Source: Massiliimicrobium timonense (GTDB lineage: Bacteria > Bacillota_I > Bacilli_A > Erysipelotrichales > Coprobacillaceae). From it: 55,585 bases of DNA. Of this stretch, positions 45,013 through 53,874 are shown in pieces. The notes under the pieces are model-generated. The model did no database searches. It was given only the letters and a program-made list of their open reading frames with translations, and had not been told where the DNA came from. A program made the position numbers and the translations under genes. The stretch is taken from contig NZ_NFLJ01000018.1 of assembly GCF_002160865.1 (NCBI RefSeq), positions 1 to 55,585 on the forward strand, in the 5' to 3' direction. Within the stretch, counting starts at the first letter, position 1; the number at the start of each line of letters is the position of its first letter.

Positions 45013-45981
45013 ATGAACAAATATTATACACGCAGTGATTTAGCGATTGAATCATTAGCCTATGCAACAAAAGATAAGGATTATAAACATAATCAAAAAA
45101 AGGATGGAAATGTCACAATTGAAATCTTTGAGATTTTACAGACAAGTTCACTTTATCCTCATGATATTGGAAAATATATCGAAATTAGTTTTCCAGACTA
45201 TCAAGAATATGAAACAGTGTCTAAACATTTTCAAAAACAGTTATCACAACTTATTAAGGATAAAGTCAAGAAAATTGATCCACTGATTTTATGGATAGGA
45301 TTGGGTAATCCAACATTAACGAGTGATGCGATTGGACCACGAACATTACATCAAATACGTGCCACACATCATTATCCTATTGAAGAAAGGCATCGTCATC
45401 AATATTATGATACTATGTGTATTGCACCCGGAGTGATGGCACACACAGGAATGGAAACAGCTAATATTTTACTTTCTTTGATTGAAGAATTTCAACCTGA
45501 TCTTGTGATTGCGATTGACGCTTTATGTGCGCAAAGTTATGAAAAAATCTGTCGTGTCATTCAAATGAATAATGTGGGTATATATCCAGGAAGTGGAATT
45601 GGCAATCATCGTAAAAATATAAGTGAAGCCACAATGGGTATACCAGTTCTTGCGATTGGTGTACCAACAGTTATTCATGTTTCAAGTCTTGTCAGTGATG
45701 TTTATAATTTATTGGAGGGCTATTTTAAAGAGTCTTTAGACCCGTCTACAGCTTTAAAGGTAGGAAAAAGAAAAAGGTATGAGGGACGACTTAATGAAGT
45801 GCAAAGGCGTTTAATTTTAGGTGAGATAGGACAACTGAGTGAACAAAAGCGAATACAATTATTAAATGAAGTTTTAAATCCTATTGAAGATCAGTTTATT
45901 ATGAGTGATAAACAGATTGATTTTGATATTGAAATGTTAGCAAAACTATTATCAACAAGCATCAATGAGTTAACTTATTAG
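45013..45981 (+). CDS. gpr: Germination protease
   Basis: A4x aspartic-type protease that degrades small acid-soluble spore proteins at germination. 322 residues. The N-terminus YYTRSDLAIESLAY matches the propeptide, whose cleavage site resembles that in the spore proteins. Core motifs GLGNPTLTSDAIGPRT, APGVMAHTGMET and VIAIDALCA are present. Expected to be made in the forespore under SigG; I could not define a convincing SigG promoter. Shows that the organism forms spores. Confidence 0.95.
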   Translation: MNKYYTRSDLAIESLAYATKDKDYKHNQKKDGNVTIEIFEILQTSSLYPHDIGKYIEISFPDYQEYETVSKHFQKQLSQLIKDKVKKIDPLILWIGLGNPTLTSDAIGPRTLHQIRATHHYPIEERHRHQYYDTMCIAPGVMAHTGMETANILLSLIEEFQPDLVIAIDALCAQSYEKICRVIQMNNVGIYPGSGIGNHRKNISEATMGIPVLAIGVPTVIHVSSLVSDVYNLLEGYFKESLDPSTALKVGKRKRYEGRLNEVQRRLILGEIGQLSEQKRIQLLNEVLNPIEDQFIMSDKQIDFDIEMLAKLLSTSINELTY

Positions 45982-46069
45982 GAAATTCAAAATGAATTTC
46001 CTTTTTATGTACTAAAAAGAACTTTTTTTGCATATATTTCATTGTATAGTTAAAAGGAGGGAAGGATTC

Positions 46070-46780
46070 ATGAATAAGAATATGAAAATTGTTTTAAAGC
46101 TGATTGTGGTGATTGTTATTTTATTGAATCTTCCTTTTCAAAATATTTATAGTGAGAGTGTCGAAAATGTTGTTTCATCATTAACAACAACAAATGTCAA
46201 AAAACAGCTTAATGGAAAATCAATTTATATTTATAATACGCATCAAGGTGAGAAATATGCGACAAAGTCGGTTAAGGAAGGGAGTCGTTATTTAATGCAA
46301 TTATTGGAAAACAAAGGATATGAGGTAGATTATGAAACAACGGATTTTGAGTTGTATAAAACTAAAAATCATATAGATTATGCAAAATCATATACAGTAT
46401 CACAAAAATATTTATCACAGGCTGTCAAGGAACATGGTGAATACGATTTGGTTATTGACTTTCATAGAGATTCTATTAAAAAAAGTTTATCTACTATAAC
46501 AGTAGATAATAAAAGTTATGCTAAACTCATGTTTGTAGTAGGAAAAGGAAGTTCTCATTATAGTGAAGTTAATAAGCGTTGTGAAAAACTGGCTGATATG
46601 TTGAATGAAAAAATTCCTAAAATATGTCGAGGTGTTTATCTTAAACAAAGTCATTATAATCAAGGTGTCACTGATAATATGATGTTAATAGAAGTGGGAG
46701 CAAATGAAAACACATATGAAGAAGTACAAAACTCATTAAATATTTTAGCAATGGTTTTAGATGAATATTTGAGTGCATGA
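46070..46780 (+). CDS. spoIIP: Stage II sporulation protein P
   Basis: Peptidoglycan amidase/endopeptidase of the SpoIIDMP engulfment machine in the mother cell. 236 residues, short for the family, from the ATG at 46070 with AAGGAGGG upstream. N-terminal membrane anchor (about 8-25), then the catalytic domain: YIYNTHQGEKY (zinc His), VIDFHRDS (His) and MMLIEVGANENT (Glu). CATATATT at 46030-46037 resembles a SigE -10 but lacks a clear -35. Overlaps the next gene by ATGA. Confidence 0.93.
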   Translation: MNKNMKIVLKLIVVIVILLNLPFQNIYSESVENVVSSLTTTNVKKQLNGKSIYIYNTHQGEKYATKSVKEGSRYLMQLLENKGYEVDYETTDFELYKTKNHIDYAKSYTVSQKYLSQAVKEHGEYDLVIDFHRDSIKKSLSTITVDNKSYAKLMFVVGKGSSHYSEVNKRCEKLADMLNEKIPKICRGVYLKQSHYNQGVTDNMMLIEVGANENTYEEVQNSLNILAMVLDEYLSA

Positions 46781-47146: not shown

Positions 47147-48760
47147 TTATTCTTGAAAGATAGAGTTGCCAATAAACTCAGCTAAAATGGATATTTGAGG
47201 AACATCAACTTTGGCAGCTATAAAATAATCTAAGAGTTTATAAAGACGATGTGCTTCTATATATTCTTTTTCCTTTGGTGATACTTGTAATAATAATTTT
47301 TGAACAATAGGTTTTAAGATGGCTAATTCATAGACCATAGATGTATTAAAAATAACATCTGCCTGTTCCTGATAAGGGTAAATGTACTGTTCTTCACCTT
47401 TTTGAACATTTTTCCAGCGACGGATTGTTTCTGTCGCATCAGCATTTCTAAACTGATAATCTCTTGCTATACGGCGAATGAGGCGATAATCTGATGTCGG
47501 GATACGATTATGATTATCATAATTGAGATGAGTTAAAGCATTAATATATATTTTCATTTTCATATTTTCGGGAATATAGTATGACGTACGAGGATTCAGT
47601 CCATGAATGCCTTCGATAATAAGAATTTGACGTGGAGATAATACAGTAGGCTGCTGGTTGTATTCTCTTAATCCTGTTTGAAAATGATAATGTGGTAAGT
47701 AAACGGGTTTATGATGTATCAGTTGAAGCATTGTTTCATTGAATAATTTTAAATCTATAGCTTCAATGTTTTCAAAATCATAACTACCATCTAGGAGGCG
47801 TGGAGTCTGTGTTCTGTTTAAATAAAAATCGTCCATAGAAATTGTGATAGGATCCATTCCTAAGATTTTTAAATGAATACCTAAACGTTTAGAAAATGTT
47901 GTTTTACCAGCAGAGCTGGGACCAGCAATTAAAATCATTTTTAAATGTTCTTTTTCTTTCGCAATATATGATGCCAGTTCAGATAACTTCTTTTCAATCA
48001 TCGCTTCTGACATTAACATCAATTCATTGGTTTGACCATTCATAATCTTTTCATTCATTTTCGCAACATTAGCCACATCAATAAGTTTACCCCATTCTTC
48101 ATATTCTTTCATGACTTGAAAGAGTTTATAATGTTGAAATGTGACATCATAACGTCCTAAGCGTAATCCTGGAGCAAAGAATTGAAGTGAAATATCGTGA
48201 AGATAAGAAGCATCTGGCAGCATGAAACCATAAAAATAGTCATAGATACCTTCCATTTCATAAATGCTGCATATATCTTTTGAACGATATTGTAATAAAT
48301 CGGCTTTATCTTCTAAATGATTCTTTTTCAAAAAATCAATGGCTTGATTTTTTGGTAATATATGACGAGTTATTTTTGCTTTTTTATGAATGATTTCTAA
48401 CATTTTTTGTTTGATCTTATTGACATCCTGTGGTGTCAAACTTTCATTTTTTTGAATAGAACAATATAATCCATCTTGAAATGTAAATTCAATATGTATA
48501 TTTGCATTTTTAAAGAGATGTTTGACTGCAACAATAAATACAAAAGTCAAAGTTCTTTCATAGATTTGTTTACCGATCATACTATCTTTTTTAACCCATT
48601 CAATGGATGCATTTTTTTCAATCCTATATGTGAGTTCACATAGTTTTCCATCAACAATTCCTGCATAAATTGACTGATTAGAATCATATGTTTTGATAAT
48701 GTCTTCTAAACGCATGGGTTTTTCTATTTCAATCTGTTGATTTTGAATATTTAATAACAT
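47147..48760 (-). CDS. Nucleoside (uridine-type) kinase fused to ThrRS-like N-terminal domains
   Basis: 537 residues. The N-terminal 60 residues look like a TGS domain (MRLEDIIKTYDSNQSIYAGI). About 60-270 resemble the editing/SAD region of threonyl-tRNA synthetase but lack the full zinc motif. The C-terminal half is a P-loop uridine kinase: GPSSAGKTTFSKRL (about 284-297), SMDDFYLNRT, IIEGIHGLN and RRIARDYQFR. This architecture is a known but little-studied family in Bacillota. The kinase probably phosphorylates uridine or a related nucleoside; what the tRNA-synthetase-like part senses is unknown. Confidence 0.85.
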   Translation of the reverse strand: MLLNIQNQQIEIEKPMRLEDIIKTYDSNQSIYAGIVDGKLCELTYRIEKNASIEWVKKDSMIGKQIYERTLTFVFIVAVKHLFKNANIHIEFTFQDGLYCSIQKNESLTPQDVNKIKQKMLEIIHKKAKITRHILPKNQAIDFLKKNHLEDKADLLQYRSKDICSIYEMEGIYDYFYGFMLPDASYLHDISLQFFAPGLRLGRYDVTFQHYKLFQVMKEYEEWGKLIDVANVAKMNEKIMNGQTNELMLMSEAMIEKKLSELASYIAKEKEHLKMILIAGPSSAGKTTFSKRLGIHLKILGMDPITISMDDFYLNRTQTPRLLDGSYDFENIEAIDLKLFNETMLQLIHHKPVYLPHYHFQTGLREYNQQPTVLSPRQILIIEGIHGLNPRTSYYIPENMKMKIYINALTHLNYDNHNRIPTSDYRLIRRIARDYQFRNADATETIRRWKNVQKGEEQYIYPYQEQADVIFNTSMVYELAILKPIVQKLLLQVSPKEKEYIEAHRLYKLLDYFIAAKVDVPQISILAEFIGNSIFQE

Positions 48761-48899
48761 AGTTTCACTTCCTTATTCATATCTTAACATGTTTTGATAT
48801 CTATTGACATCTTTCTTTTGATGGTTAATACGTTTATTTTCAATAGGGATGAATTATAGTTGATGATAAAATATATTTTCAATAAAACTATTTTTTTTG

Positions 48900-48905
48900 T
48901 ATAAT
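48900..48905 (+). promoter_or_regulatory. -10 element before the first DUF62 gene
   Basis: TATAAT at 48900-48905 with a weak T-rich -35; GAAGGAGG follows at 48922-48929. The leader of about 25 bases leaves no room for a riboswitch. Confidence 0.6.
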
Positions 48906-48936: not shown

Positions 48937-49794
48937 ATGTCAAAACCATTAATATTACAGACGGATTTTGGTTTAGTTGATGGAGCTGTCAGTGCTATGT
49001 ATGGTGTTGCATTTAGTGTCGATGAGAATTTAAAGATATTTGATTTAACACATGATATACAACCTTATAATGTATGGGAAGCTTCTTATCGTCTGATTCA
49101 AACTGTGAATTATTGGAAAGAAGGGAGTGTTTTTGTTTCGGTTGTTGATCCTGGTGTTGGGTCTTCAAGAAGAAGCATTGCGGTTAAAACAAAAGGTGGG
49201 CAATATGTGATTACACCTGATAATGGAACATTAACACATATTAAAAAAATAATTGGAATTGAAGAAGCAAGAGAAATTGATGAAACTAAAAATAGATTAC
49301 CTCATTCAGGGGAAAGCTATACTTTTCATGGGAGAGATATTTATGCCTATACTTCTGCTAAGTTAGCAGCTGGTATTATTTCTTTTGAAGATATTGGTTC
49401 AAAAGTGGATGTGGCTTCTATTGTTGAGTTAACGACAATTCCAGCAACGATGGATCATGATATCATCAATGGAACGATTGATGTTTTAGATGTTCGTTTT
49501 GGTAGTCTATGGACAAATATTCCTAGAGAGATGTTTAAAAAGTTACATGTGTCTTTTGGTGAACGTGTTGAGATTTGTATTGAACATGAACATCGCATTG
49601 TTTATAAAAATATTTTAGTTTATGCAAAAAGCTTTGCTGATGTATCAACAGGAGAAACATTGTTATACACAAATAGTTTAGATCATATGGCAGTCGCTAT
49701 TAATCAAGGAAGCTTTGCAAAAGCTTATAACATTGGGACGGGTATTCATTGGAAAATCAGCATTCGTCGTGCACCTAAAGTAATTTATGAATAA
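48937..49794 (+). CDS. SAM hydrolase (SAM hydroxide adenosyltransferase, DUF62), copy 1
   Basis: 285 residues. The family hydrolyses S-adenosylmethionine to adenosine and methionine using an Asp-Arg-His set, and is related to SAM-dependent fluorinases and chlorinases. Visible: TDFGLVDGAVSAMYGV at the N-terminus, VVDPGVGSSRRSI (Asp and Arg), TPDNGTLTHI, TFHGRDIYAYTSAKL (His), and a C-terminal barrel with AKSFADV and INQGSFAKAYNIG. First gene of a five-gene cluster with an ECF transporter and a second DUF62 gene. Confidence 0.88.
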   Translation: MSKPLILQTDFGLVDGAVSAMYGVAFSVDENLKIFDLTHDIQPYNVWEASYRLIQTVNYWKEGSVFVSVVDPGVGSSRRSIAVKTKGGQYVITPDNGTLTHIKKIIGIEEAREIDETKNRLPHSGESYTFHGRDIYAYTSAKLAAGIISFEDIGSKVDVASIVELTTIPATMDHDIINGTIDVLDVRFGSLWTNIPREMFKKLHVSFGERVEICIEHEHRIVYKNILVYAKSFADVSTGETLLYTNSLDHMAVAINQGSFAKAYNIGTGIHWKISIRRAPKVIYE

Positions 49795-49821
49795 CAATGA
49801 GGCTTGTTAGAGATAAATTTA

Positions 49822-49850
49822 TTGACAAAAAAATGAGAAAGATTTACTAT
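49822..49850 (+). promoter_or_regulatory. Internal promoter before the ECF genes
   Basis: TTGACA (49822-49827), 17-base spacer, TACTAT (49845-49850). Allows the transporter to be expressed independently of the first DUF62 gene. Confidence 0.65.
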
Positions 49851-49894
49851 TTTGTTGTATTTTAAAAATAATTAAAAAGAGAGGGGCGTGTCTT

Positions 49895-50473
49895 ATGAGT
49901 AAGAAGACAACTTTAGAAAAATTTATAGGTGTTTGGAATACAAAAACAATTGTAGGGGTTGCCATTGGGGCAGCATTATTTGGTGTATTGATGAATTTTG
50001 GTTCAATTAGAATCTTTACAAATACCAGTTTAACAACAGCTATGGTTGTTCCTGTTATTGTTGGGGGATTATTTGGACCACTTCCAGCTGCAGTCGCTGC
50101 GGGAGTAGGAAATGTAATTGCTGATTTAATCAGTGGTTCAGGTTTCTGGTTTGACTGGTCTATTGGAAATGCATTTTTAGGATTGTTTATTGGAGCACTT
50201 CCATTATATGGGGCATATATTGAAGATGGTATTTTTGAAGTCAAACATATGATTATTTATGCTATTCTTTGTGTGATTGGATGTGGTATTAGTTTTGGAT
50301 TGGTGACACCATTCTTTACATATTTATGGTATGGTGGAGAATTAACAATTACTTTATATCAATCTGTTGTTGGGTCTATTTCTAATATTATTGTTTTATT
50401 GGTTATTGGTATTCCAGTTTTAAAAGTTTTAGCTAGTAGAAATTCTCGTGGTCGAAACTTAAAAGCTGAATAA
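49895..50473 (+). CDS. ECF transporter substrate-binding S component (UPF0397-like)
   Basis: 192 residues, about six membrane spans. The opening VGVAIGAALFGVLMNF and the stretch GGLFGPLPAAVAAGVGNV IADL match the UPF0397 group of S components, which are usually followed by a double-domain ABC gene and EcfT, as here. Databases often label the group a riboflavin-type carrier, but binding residues cannot be judged. GAGAGGGG precedes the ATG. The stop overlaps the next start by one base. Confidence 0.85.
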   Translation: MSKKTTLEKFIGVWNTKTIVGVAIGAALFGVLMNFGSIRIFTNTSLTTAMVVPVIVGGLFGPLPAAVAAGVGNVIADLISGSGFWFDWSIGNAFLGLFIGALPLYGAYIEDGIFEVKHMIIYAILCVIGCGISFGLVTPFFTYLWYGGELTITLYQSVVGSISNIIVLLVIGIPVLKVLASRNSRGRNLKAE

Positions 50474-52176
50474 TGAAAAAACCTGTCATTGAATTTAAAG
50501 ACTTTAGTTTTCGATATAAATCTCAAACTGAAGATACTTTAAAGCATATTAATCTAACGATTTATGAAGGAGAAAAAGTGTTGTTACTTGGACCAAGTGG
50601 TTGTGGGAAATCAACACTTGCTCATTGTATCAATGGATTAATTCCGTTTTCATATGATGGGGAATGTCAGGGATCTTGTAAAATTGCTAGTTTGGAAGTT
50701 GTTCAATCTAGCATTTTTCAGTTAAGTAGTCAAGTTGGAACAGTTTTACAGGATTCTGATGCTCAGTTCGTTGGATTGTCTGTTGGTGAAGATATTGCAT
50801 ATGCACTGGAAAATGAGAATATGCCACGAGAAGAAATGATTCCACGTGTATATCAATCAGCCAAAATGGTAGACATGCATGAATTCTTAAATCATGTTCC
50901 TTATGATTTAAGTGGTGGACAAAAACAGCGTGTTGCTTTAGCTGGTATCATGCATGATGATGTGAAAATATTACTGTTCGATGAACCTTTGGCGGCTTTG
51001 GACCCTATGATGGGAAATGATGCTATTGATTTGATTGACCGTATTTATAGAGAACAAAAGAAAACAGTTGTGATTATTGAGCATCGTTTAGAAGATGTTT
51101 TATATCGTCATGTTGATCGTGTCATTTTACTGCAGGAAGGAAAAATTATTGCTGATATGACACCTGATGAACTTTTATTAAGTCCATTGTTAAAAGAAAA
51201 TGGTATTAGAGAACCTTTATATATTACAGCATTAAAAAATGCCGGATGTCAATTACAGCCTGATCATATTAGTCATATCCAGGATATTGATCTTGAGCCT
51301 TATCGTCAACAGCTTATTGATGATTTTCATCAGTCAATACCATCAAAACCTCAAGAGCCACAAGATGTGATTATTGAGGTAAAAGATTTATCTTTTGCAT
51401 ATCAGTCTGATCATCAGATCCTTGACAATGTTTCTTTTGAGATAAGAAAAGGTGAAAAAATTGCCATTGTTGGAAAAAATGGTGCTGGTAAAAGTACAAT
51501 CGCTAAACTCTTATGTGGTATTTTAAGACCAACAAAGGGACAAATTTTGTTGAAAGGTCAAGATTATATGCAATATTCCATTAAAGAAATAGGTGGAATG
51601 ATTGGATATGTGATGCAAAATCCTAATCAGATGATTGTCAAAGATATGATTAAAGATGAAGTGGCTTTAGGTTTGACATTGCATGATTATTCAAAAGAAG
51701 ATATTGAAAAGAATGTTGAAGAAGCGTTGAAAATGTGTAATCTCTATGCGATGAGAAATTGGCCTGTTTCTGCTTTGAGTTATGGACAGAAAAAGCGTAT
51801 GACAATAGCTTCTATTTTAGCAATGAAACCAGATGTGATGATTTTAGATGAACCAACGGCAGGGCAGGATTATCGTGTCTATACGGAAATTATGACGTTT
51901 TTAGATTATTTAAATAAAGAATATGGAATCACAATATTATTCATTACTCATGATATGCATTTGGCAATTGAATATACAGACAGAGCGATTGTCTTTAGTG
52001 AAGGAACTTGCATTGGTGATGATAGTGTCTTTAAAATATTAAGTGATGAGGATATTATTCAAAGAGCTCATTTGAAACAGACATCTTTATTTACTCTAGC
52101 AAAACGCATAGGTCTTCCTTGTGATGCATTTACACAACATTTTATTGAACATGAAAGGATGAACCGTCATGAATAA
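50473..52176 (+). CDS. ECF transporter double ATPase (EcfA-EcfA' fusion)
   Basis: 567 residues carrying two ABC ATPase domains in one chain. First: Walker A GPSGCGKSTLA (about 37-47), signature LSGGQKQR, Walker B ILLFDEPLAALDP. Second: GKNGAGKSTIA (about 335-345), LSYGQKKR, VMILDEPTAGQD. The second signature has Tyr in place of Gly at the third position (LSYGQ), a modest deviation. It energises the S/T membrane parts. Coupled to both neighbours. Confidence 0.93.
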   Translation: MKKPVIEFKDFSFRYKSQTEDTLKHINLTIYEGEKVLLLGPSGCGKSTLAHCINGLIPFSYDGECQGSCKIASLEVVQSSIFQLSSQVGTVLQDSDAQFVGLSVGEDIAYALENENMPREEMIPRVYQSAKMVDMHEFLNHVPYDLSGGQKQRVALAGIMHDDVKILLFDEPLAALDPMMGNDAIDLIDRIYREQKKTVVIIEHRLEDVLYRHVDRVILLQEGKIIADMTPDELLLSPLLKENGIREPLYITALKNAGCQLQPDHISHIQDIDLEPYRQQLIDDFHQSIPSKPQEPQDVIIEVKDLSFAYQSDHQILDNVSFEIRKGEKIAIVGKNGAGKSTIAKLLCGILRPTKGQILLKGQDYMQYSIKEIGGMIGYVMQNPNQMIVKDMIKDEVALGLTLHDYSKEDIEKNVEEALKMCNLYAMRNWPVSALSYGQKKRMTIASILAMKPDVMILDEPTAGQDYRVYTEIMTFLDYLNKEYGITILFITHDMHLAIEYTDRAIVFSEGTCIGDDSVFKILSDEDIIQRAHLKQTSLFTLAKRIGLPCDAFTQHFIEHERMNRHE

Positions 52177-53011
52177 TTTCATCATTAATCTGATTCCCGG
52201 TAAAACTTTTTTACATCAGTTGTCCGGAACAACAAAAGTTCGTTTATTCTTTGTTCTCATTGTATATTTAATTATGTCTTTTGATTTAAGATTAATTCTA
52301 CCGGTTTTTATTTTAGGTATCATTGGATTGATTTCATTAAGACCTAAGTTAAAATCAGTACGATATATTATTATCTTTGTTGTTGTGATGAATTTGGTGA
52401 ATATTCTTTTATATTATTTAGCGAATCCTCATTTAGGTATGCTTTATTTTGGTCATGAAACTATCTGGTTTCAATTTAATGATTATTATATTGTGACTTA
52501 TGAAGAAGTCTGGTTTTTATTATCAAGATTTTTAAAAATGATTGCGTCTTTCTTGATTTCTTTAGATTTTATTTTAGCGATTACACCAAGTGAATTTGCA
52601 GCTGGCCTTTACTCATGCAAAGTTCCATATAAAATTTGTACAATTGTAGAAATGGCTTTTCGTTATATTCCTGATATTGCCAGAGATTATCAGAATATTA
52701 AAGTTTCTATGCAGGCACGAGGAGTCGAACTGGATCCTAAGAAAACAGGACTACTGAAACGTATTAAACAAAATATTTTGATTTTAATCCCTTTAGTCAT
52801 CACTTCTTTTGATCGTATTGGTAATATTTCTAATGCTATGGATTTAAGAGGATTTGGTAAAGGAAAGAAACGTAGTTATTATGCAGAACATGAAGAAACA
52901 CCAAATGATAAAAAAGTGAAAATTGTTTATATTTTATTAGGATTATTTGTTGTAGGATATATTATTGGGAGAATATTTTTTAATGTATCTGAAGTTTGGT
53001 ATCCATTTTAA
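52169..53011 (+). CDS. ECF transporter transmembrane component EcfT
   Basis: 280 residues, about five to six membrane spans. The two Arg-containing coupling motifs that contact the ATPases are visible: SMQARGVELDP and MDLRGFGKGKKRS. AAAGGATG lies in the end of the ATPase gene, overlapping by 8 bases. With the S component and double ATPase it makes a dedicated ECF complex. Confidence 0.92.
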   Translation: MNNFIINLIPGKTFLHQLSGTTKVRLFFVLIVYLIMSFDLRLILPVFILGIIGLISLRPKLKSVRYIIIFVVVMNLVNILLYYLANPHLGMLYFGHETIWFQFNDYYIVTYEEVWFLLSRFLKMIASFLISLDFILAITPSEFAAGLYSCKVPYKICTIVEMAFRYIPDIARDYQNIKVSMQARGVELDPKKTGLLKRIKQNILILIPLVITSFDRIGNISNAMDLRGFGKGKKRSYYAEHEETPNDKKVKIVYILLGLFVVGYIIGRIFFNVSEVWYPF

Positions 53012-53025
53012 CAAGGAGGAAGAAA

Positions 53026-53874
53026 ATGAAACCATGTATTGTATGGCAAACTGATTTTAGTTTGGATTGGCCTTTTGTCGCAACAATGAAAGGTGTTTGT
53101 AAGCAAGTAGATGCTTCTTTAGAATGTGTTGACAGTACACATACGATTGAAAAATTTAATGTTTTAGAAGCAAGTCAACAATTAAATTATGTAGAGCCAT
53201 TTTGGCCAAAAGGAACAGTTTTTGTTTCTGTTGTTGATCCAGGTGTTGGAACACCTAGAAAAGCCAGTGTTGCTTTATTAAAAGATGGGAATTATGTAGT
53301 CACACCAGATAATGGAACATTAACACATATGTATTATAATATTGGTATTGAGGCAATAAGAGAAATTGATGAAACAAAGAATCGTTATCAGGGAACAGAA
53401 AGTGTATCTGTTTTCCATGGTCGAGACTTATTTGCTTATACAGCTGCAAAACTAGCGAGTGGACAAATCACATTTGAAGAAGTGGGGGAAAGTTATTCTC
53501 TTGATGATATTGTTTTATTGGATTATGAATATTTAAAAGCTGATGTGAAAAATGAAGATATTCAAGGCATTGTTTCTAATGTTTCTGATCCATTTGGAAG
53601 TATTGTTTTTAATGTTTTGACTGAAGACTTTAATCGTGTTGGTTATCATGAAGGAGATTATATTCATGTTGTTTTAGAAAATGAACAAGGTGTTTATTTT
53701 GATGAAACGGTTCCTTATGCGAAATCCTTTGGATTTGTAGATATTGGACAACCTGTTATCTTTAATTCTTCATCTAATTATATTTCGATAGGATTAAATC
53801 AAGGAAGCTTTAAAGATGTTTATCAGGTGAAAGCTGGACTTCAGTGGAAAGTTCAATTTCATAAAGTTGATTAA
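53026..53874 (+). CDS. SAM hydrolase (DUF62), copy 2
   Basis: 282 residues from the ATG at 53026, with AAGGAGG upstream. Same domain layout as copy 1 (VVDPGVGTPRKAS, TPDNGTLTHM, FHGRDLFAYTAAKLASG, QGSFKDVYQV), so paralogous but clearly diverged. The N-terminal motif is TDFSLDWPFVATMKGV, where copy 1 and most of the family have TDFGL; this region lines the SAM site. The Asp, Arg and His of the catalytic set appear conserved. The two copies could form a mixed complex or use different adenosyl substrates. Confidence 0.87.
   Translation: MKPCIVWQTDFSLDWPFVATMKGVCKQVDASLECVDSTHTIEKFNVLEASQQLNYVEPFWPKGTVFVSVVDPGVGTPRKASVALLKDGNYVVTPDNGTLTHMYYNIGIEAIREIDETKNRYQGTESVSVFHGRDLFAYTAAKLASGQITFEEVGESYSLDDIVLLDYEYLKADVKNEDIQGIVSNVSDPFGSIVFNVLTEDFNRVGYHEGDYIHVVLENEQGVYFDETVPYAKSFGFVDIGQPVIFNSSSNYISIGLNQGSFKDVYQVKAGLQWKVQFHKVD

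Follow-up and report, generated by a model that had tools for sequence, protein, structure and literature searches.

A candidate S-adenosylmethionine salvage operon that links an ECF transporter to diverged DUF62 hydrolases

The window, by which we mean the whole stretch of DNA analysed (55,585 nucleotides of Massiliimicrobium timonense), contains a run of five plus-strand genes. The run opens with DUF62-1 (48937-49794, 285 aa), a SAM_HAT-type S-adenosylmethionine (SAM) hydrolase of clade I recognized by Pfam families PF01887 (1.4e-50) and PF20257. Next come an ECF S component, a membrane substrate binder that is putatively a SAM binder (49895-50473, 192 aa; PF07155, 1.9e-26), and a fused A-A' ECF ATPase (50473-52176, 567 aa) with two ABC_tran domains, a DUF3744 linker, and matches to TIGR04520 in two stretches. 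The transmembrane component EcfT (52169-53011, 280 aa; CbiQ, PF02361, 1.1e-22) and a second SAM_HAT hydrolase, DUF62-2 of clade II (53026-53874, 282 aa; PF01887, 3.5e-43, and PF20257), complete the set. The five unidirectional genes (DUF62, S component, double ATPase, EcfT, DUF62) that an earlier note on this DNA had read from the letters are present at the coordinates given there, and Pfam and NCBIfam verify their families. The start of DUF62-2 is likely ATG 53026, which lies behind AAGGAGG; the alternative listed start, TTG 52996, falls within EcfT.

The tight coupling described in the note is borne out by the gene junctions: the S and ATPase genes overlap by 1 bp (TAATG), the ATPase and EcfT genes by 8 bp, and DUF62-2 begins 14 bp after EcfT. 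The gap between DUF62-1 and the S gene is 100 bp, and a consensus scan finds a promoter-like site in it (TTGACA-17-TACTAT, 49822..49850, plus strand), making it plausible that the S gene has its own promoter. The earlier claim of a separate transporter promoter holds in that the consensus match exists, but such matches are no commoner in the region than in shuffled sequence (35 versus 29.1, sd 5.2; no excess). DUF62-1 likewise has a promoter-like site in the consensus scan (TTTTCA-18-TATAAT, 48876..48905, plus strand), which lies about 30 bp 5' of the start codon and so would leave a leader too short for a riboswitch. A search of the whole window with Rfam at gathering thresholds gave zero matches and hence no riboswitch; the leaders are very short, and the note too had seen none there. 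Upstream of the operon are genes for the spore germination protease GPR and for SpoIIP (45013-46780), from which the organism is probably spore-forming. A minus-strand gene divergent from the operon (47147-48760) codes for a protein that resembles uridine kinase and whose N-terminal part weakly matches threonyl-tRNA synthetase.

How old is this pair of hydrolases? DUF62-1 and DUF62-2 are 41% identical and, in a tree of 127 DUF62 proteins that separates old clades, one falls in clade I (supports 99/96) and the other in clade II (100/98). The pair is, to judge from this tree, an old duplication that has been maintained across families, and the two copies are as diverged as had been supposed. Both have the N and C domains of the SAM_HAT family and an intact Asp-Arg-His triad. 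The triad is also complete throughout clades II and III, whereas some clade I and IV proteins have Tyr or Asp in place of its His. The FGN motif reads FGS in both window copies, whereas characterised relatives have Asn, the residue that contacts adenine in fluorinase and chlorinase structures. This position is Ser in clades I and II, Gly in clade IV, and still Asn in clade III. The substrate of the window enzymes may therefore differ from plain SAM; the domain assignment is unaffected. Because of the FGS motif we also considered whether both hydrolases have moved off adenosyl substrates, an idea weakened by the clade III partners with FGN and by SAM regulation in relatives. The changed motif TDFSL that the note had pointed out in the SAM site of the second copy is real but not special, for clade II reads TDFG or TDFS and the change is clade variation. 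The NCBIfam equivalogs for characterised (R)-SAM hydrolases, NF058624 and NF053629, give scores far under their cut-offs (131.3 of 350 and 129.4 of 470).

The S component was modelled with AlphaFold (pLDDT 89.5) and has the S-component fold. All confident Foldseek matches of the model are S components (FolT, RibU, BioY, ThiT and PanT); the nearest is FolT, with a TM of about 0.6, and RibU scores lower. The comparison gives the fold but no pointer to the ligand, and a sequence search found no relative of solved structure. With an S fold, ECF ATPases and EcfT encoded together, the system has the make-up of a dedicated ECF transporter of the group I type.

Relatives of the S component were scanned in one genome per species, giving 45 loci. 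By clustering, 44 of these have the ATPase, 41 have EcfT and 38 have at least one DUF62 gene, and most retain the S-A-T order. Four of the seven loci without DUF62 end at contig ends (L006, L031, L034, L037); the other three (L008, L033, L047) have room for it, and their lack of DUF62 counts against a SAM salvage function. So do distant relatives of the S component in other families (L184-L188), which have A and T but are without DUF62; small genomes are among them. Most of the hosts belong to the Erysipelotrichaceae and Lachnospiraceae and were sampled from the gut; Oscillospiraceae also occur, as do some contigs of Treponema and Brevinematales. Within the window's own order, 196 genomes divide into 65 with both S component and DUF62, 2 with the S component alone, 8 with DUF62 alone and 121 with neither. 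DUF62 thus occurs in 65/67 genomes that have the S component and in 8/129 that lack it, so that the association seen in the window is widespread and far beyond chance (Fisher 4e-40, uncorrected for kinship).

The DUF62-S-A-T-DUF62 arrangement, described earlier as a bracketing of the transporter, is common to the window and its close relatives, but other arrangements exist. Most relatives have their DUF62 genes 3' of EcfT, often with an M20 peptidase gene before them. This peptidase, of the Sapep/PepV type and with conserved motifs such as HLDVV, is encoded between EcfT and the DUF62 genes in 27 of the 45 loci (e.g., L009:9733-11139). In a Treponema locus (L035:8069-8851) the M20 slot is taken by a relative of N-formylglutamate amidohydrolase (FGase).

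Several genomes carry a tandem array of five DUF62 genes (a-e) after S-A-T, and in G113 a clade I copy comes behind the array. EcfT and then five consecutive DUF62 units are found in L107, L108, L110, L111, L112, L123 and L183, and in G170 and G159 units a and b are fused into one 550-aa protein. An AlphaFold model of the natively fused double DUF62 of L112, made from a single sequence, had a pLDDT of 31. All five clade b proteins have lost the entire triad together with its loops and have kept the C domain; clade e has kept the triad and has no C domain. DUF62 active sites sit between the protomers of a trimer (PMC12120602). These complementary losses, in enzymes whose active sites are shared between protomers, imply that the array proteins would form hetero-oligomers. 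For DUF62-1 and DUF62-2 of the window a hetero-oligomer would be only an analogy.

DUF62 genes also occur singly. A lone clade I gene lies near metH- and metF-like genes in G387 (L191:7056-7901), with no ECF genes in the stretch fetched. Lone clade IV genes are found near a gene whose membrane-like product of 555 aa matches no Pfam family (L117:6381-7217 and L118:6115-7032), or directly 3' of a PyrR-like phosphoribosyltransferase gene and without ECF genes (L120:6579-7457 and L121:6430-7320). On one contig of G131 (L113) the entire operon is present twice as an inverted repeat, which is probably an assembly artefact.

Regulatory elements in relatives are informative. Rfam places a SAM riboswitch directly 5' of the S gene in G113 and G184, and a covariance model derived from the sequences of this analysis does so in G144, G157, G134 and G099 (L044 and G184 are one genome). 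G100 has a weak SAM riboswitch match (E 0.0026) 5' of a metK-S-A-T-DUF62-DUF62 run. In G082 an Rfam T-box with AUG at the specifier position is directly 5' of the S gene, and T-box-like leaders with AUG, identified by motif and alignment, precede it in G189, G169, G088, G053, G147, G183 and G054; the specifier triplets were assigned by eye. G116 has a Met T-box ahead of metQ, metN, metI, a hydrolase gene and the S gene, all on one strand. Altogether at least 14 relatives have a SAM riboswitch or a Met T-box on the operon, and the window itself has none. Rfam found no riboswitch in the 27 loci of the first batches; the signals came from other genomes. Since the S proteins of the regulated relatives fall in the same alignment as the window protein or match its profile, the window operon would belong to a Met/SAM regulon by orthology.

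Gene neighbours concern the same pathway. In G100, G119 and G177 metK, encoding SAM synthetase with all three MetK domains, adjoins the operon, and metNIQ or metNI adjoins ECF or DUF62 genes in L040, L109, L111 and L197. We searched genomes that were at least 90% complete for SAM synthetases of the bacterial, archaeal and compact types. No recognisable synthetase was found in 10/57 genomes with the S component versus 3/112 without it (Fisher 0.0012, a guide only because the genomes are related). Discovery of a compact MetK-like protein and of one fragmentary metK had reduced the total of metK-less genomes from 24 to 17, and absence from draft genomes could mask an unfamiliar SAM synthetase. 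Four of the genomes without a synthetase (G184, G144, G134 and G099) are ones with a SAM riboswitch on the S gene; G044 and G088 are also metK-less carriers of the S component. In mixed genera (g23, g28, g30 and g59) the genomes without any recognisable synthetase are carriers. The genome of the window has metK, and there the system would supplement SAM synthesis. The compact MetK-like proteins (L175-L179) are ORFs of about 260 aa, 65-79% identical among genomes, in which Pfam recognises only the N domain; they stand beside a normal metK in some genomes and are the sole MetK-like gene in others.

What the earlier note had suggested was a pathway centred on some adenosyl or sulfur compound and served by its own uptake system. 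The riboswitches, T-boxes, neighbouring genes and metK loss support this and narrow the compound to methionine or SAM. Specifically, SAM riboswitches and Met T-boxes, metNIQ and metK neighbours, and the loss of SAM synthetase among carriers point to SAM/methionine salvage, and we consider it probable that the five genes encode an ECF importer of SAM together with SAM hydrolases that yield methionine and adenosine. The transported ligand would be SAM itself, the DUF62 hydrolases would act on imported SAM with a preference between its epimers, and the window operon would do the same job as its regulated orthologues.

SAM is the main cellular methyl donor and epimerises spontaneously. In the salvage scheme, low SAM or uncharged Met-tRNA would, in relatives, induce the operon; the S component would capture SAM from the gut, and its ECF module would import it. 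Part of the imported SAM would be used intact as a cofactor, which metK-less carriers would need, and DUF62 would split the remainder into methionine and adenosine. Among the DUF62 substrates would most plausibly be the inactive (R,S) epimer, which builds up as extracellular SAM ages. DUF62 enzymes hydrolyse SAM and StDUF62 favours (R,S)-SAM (PMC12120602, PMC10491745), although (R,S)-SAM hydrolysis or disposal as the physiological role has been doubted for StDUF62 (PMC12120602). Given the StDUF62 preference and the epimerisation of SAM, editing of the wrong epimer, which would still yield methionine, is the most economical reason for pairing an importer with a hydrolase. For metK-less carriers it would be self-defeating to break down (S,S)-SAM, which favours a stereoselective hydrolase. 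We tentatively go one step further, to a proposal that we hold to be less likely than not: some gut Erysipelotrichia-like bacteria would have lost SAM synthesis altogether and live on ECF-imported SAM, with DUF62, in several lineages as hetero-oligomers of diverged or half-dead paralogues, editing epimers and releasing methionine. The salvage reading leaves the M20 peptidase unexplained; if it freed methionine from dipeptides, that would suit a Met/SAM regulon.

That peptidase, which is present in many of the operons and could free methionine, also suits a rival in which the S component takes in methionine itself or one of its precursors or by-products (S-methylmethionine, methylthioadenosine or methylthioribose) and DUF62 only trims intracellular SAM. 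SAM riboswitch and Met T-box control would be expected of such an importer too. It would not, however, account for carriers that have lost SAM synthetase or for SAM hydrolases being the partners found most constantly, and metNIQ beside the operon already brings in methionine; we judge this rival rather unlikely. Lower still is our estimate for the import of some other nucleoside-sulfonium compound or SAM analogue (an antimetabolite or an amide conjugate), whose amide the M20 or N-formylglutamate-type amidohydrolase would open and whose nucleoside DUF62 would remove. In its favour, clades I, II and IV have Ser or Gly where Asn would contact adenine, and two amidohydrolase families occupy one slot. 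But clade III retains this Asn, control by SAM itself suggests that SAM is the substrate, and no known compound of this kind fits, which makes the idea improbable.

A vitamin ligand with no link to SAM would be a different matter, and a database name does suggest one: the window S component passes the cut-off of NCBIfam PRK13661, 'ECF-type riboflavin transporter substrate-binding protein' (113.6 versus 99). Yet no FMN riboswitch was present in any locus searched, the window included, while SAM and Met elements recur, and the fold model is closer to FolT than to RibU. As the regulation of relatives points elsewhere, we judge the riboflavin name unsuitable for this protein, and riboflavin import is very improbable indeed.

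Is SAM salvage by such an operon new? Neither ECF transporters nor DUF62 enzymes are new in themselves. A literature search, with subscription papers mostly outside it, gave no report of an ECF-DUF62 or ECF-SAM system or of a SAM-specific S component; in the same search the combination of DUF62 with an importer, its control by SAM or Met, the link to SAM synthetase loss, and the DUF62 arrays were not found described. Should SAM be the ligand, the system would, within the literature searched, be a first ECF importer of this compound, and SAM would be a traded gut nutrient on which some bacteria depend. The riboflavin name that the database gives the S-component family also seems to be wrong. 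The physiological role of DUF62 is an open question, which the link to an importer in SAM- or Met-tRNA-sensing operons makes directly testable; were the epimer-editing proposal for SAM-auxotrophic gut bacteria true, DUF62 would gain its missing role.

Three known systems offer comparisons. Obligate intracellular bacteria such as Rickettsia and Chlamydia import SAM through secondary carriers of another family; the shared idea is SAM import where SAM synthesis is defective, whereas here the system is an ATP-driven ECF transporter and the hosts are gut bacteria. The DUF62 hydrolases PH0463 and StDUF62, the fluorinase and the chlorinase have both domains in common with the window copies, and the hydrolases share their Asp-Arg-His triad; unlike the PH0463/StDUF62 type, the enzymes described here come in diverged pairs or arrays linked to an importer and, in three clades, have exchanged the base-contact Asn for Ser or Gly. 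Finally, dedicated ECF transporters (S, A-A' and T) for riboflavin, folate, thiamine, biotin and B12 have the same gene set, S fold, ECF-type ATPases and EcfT, but the window type differs from them in being tied to SAM hydrolases and, in relatives, in being under a SAM riboswitch or a Met T-box.
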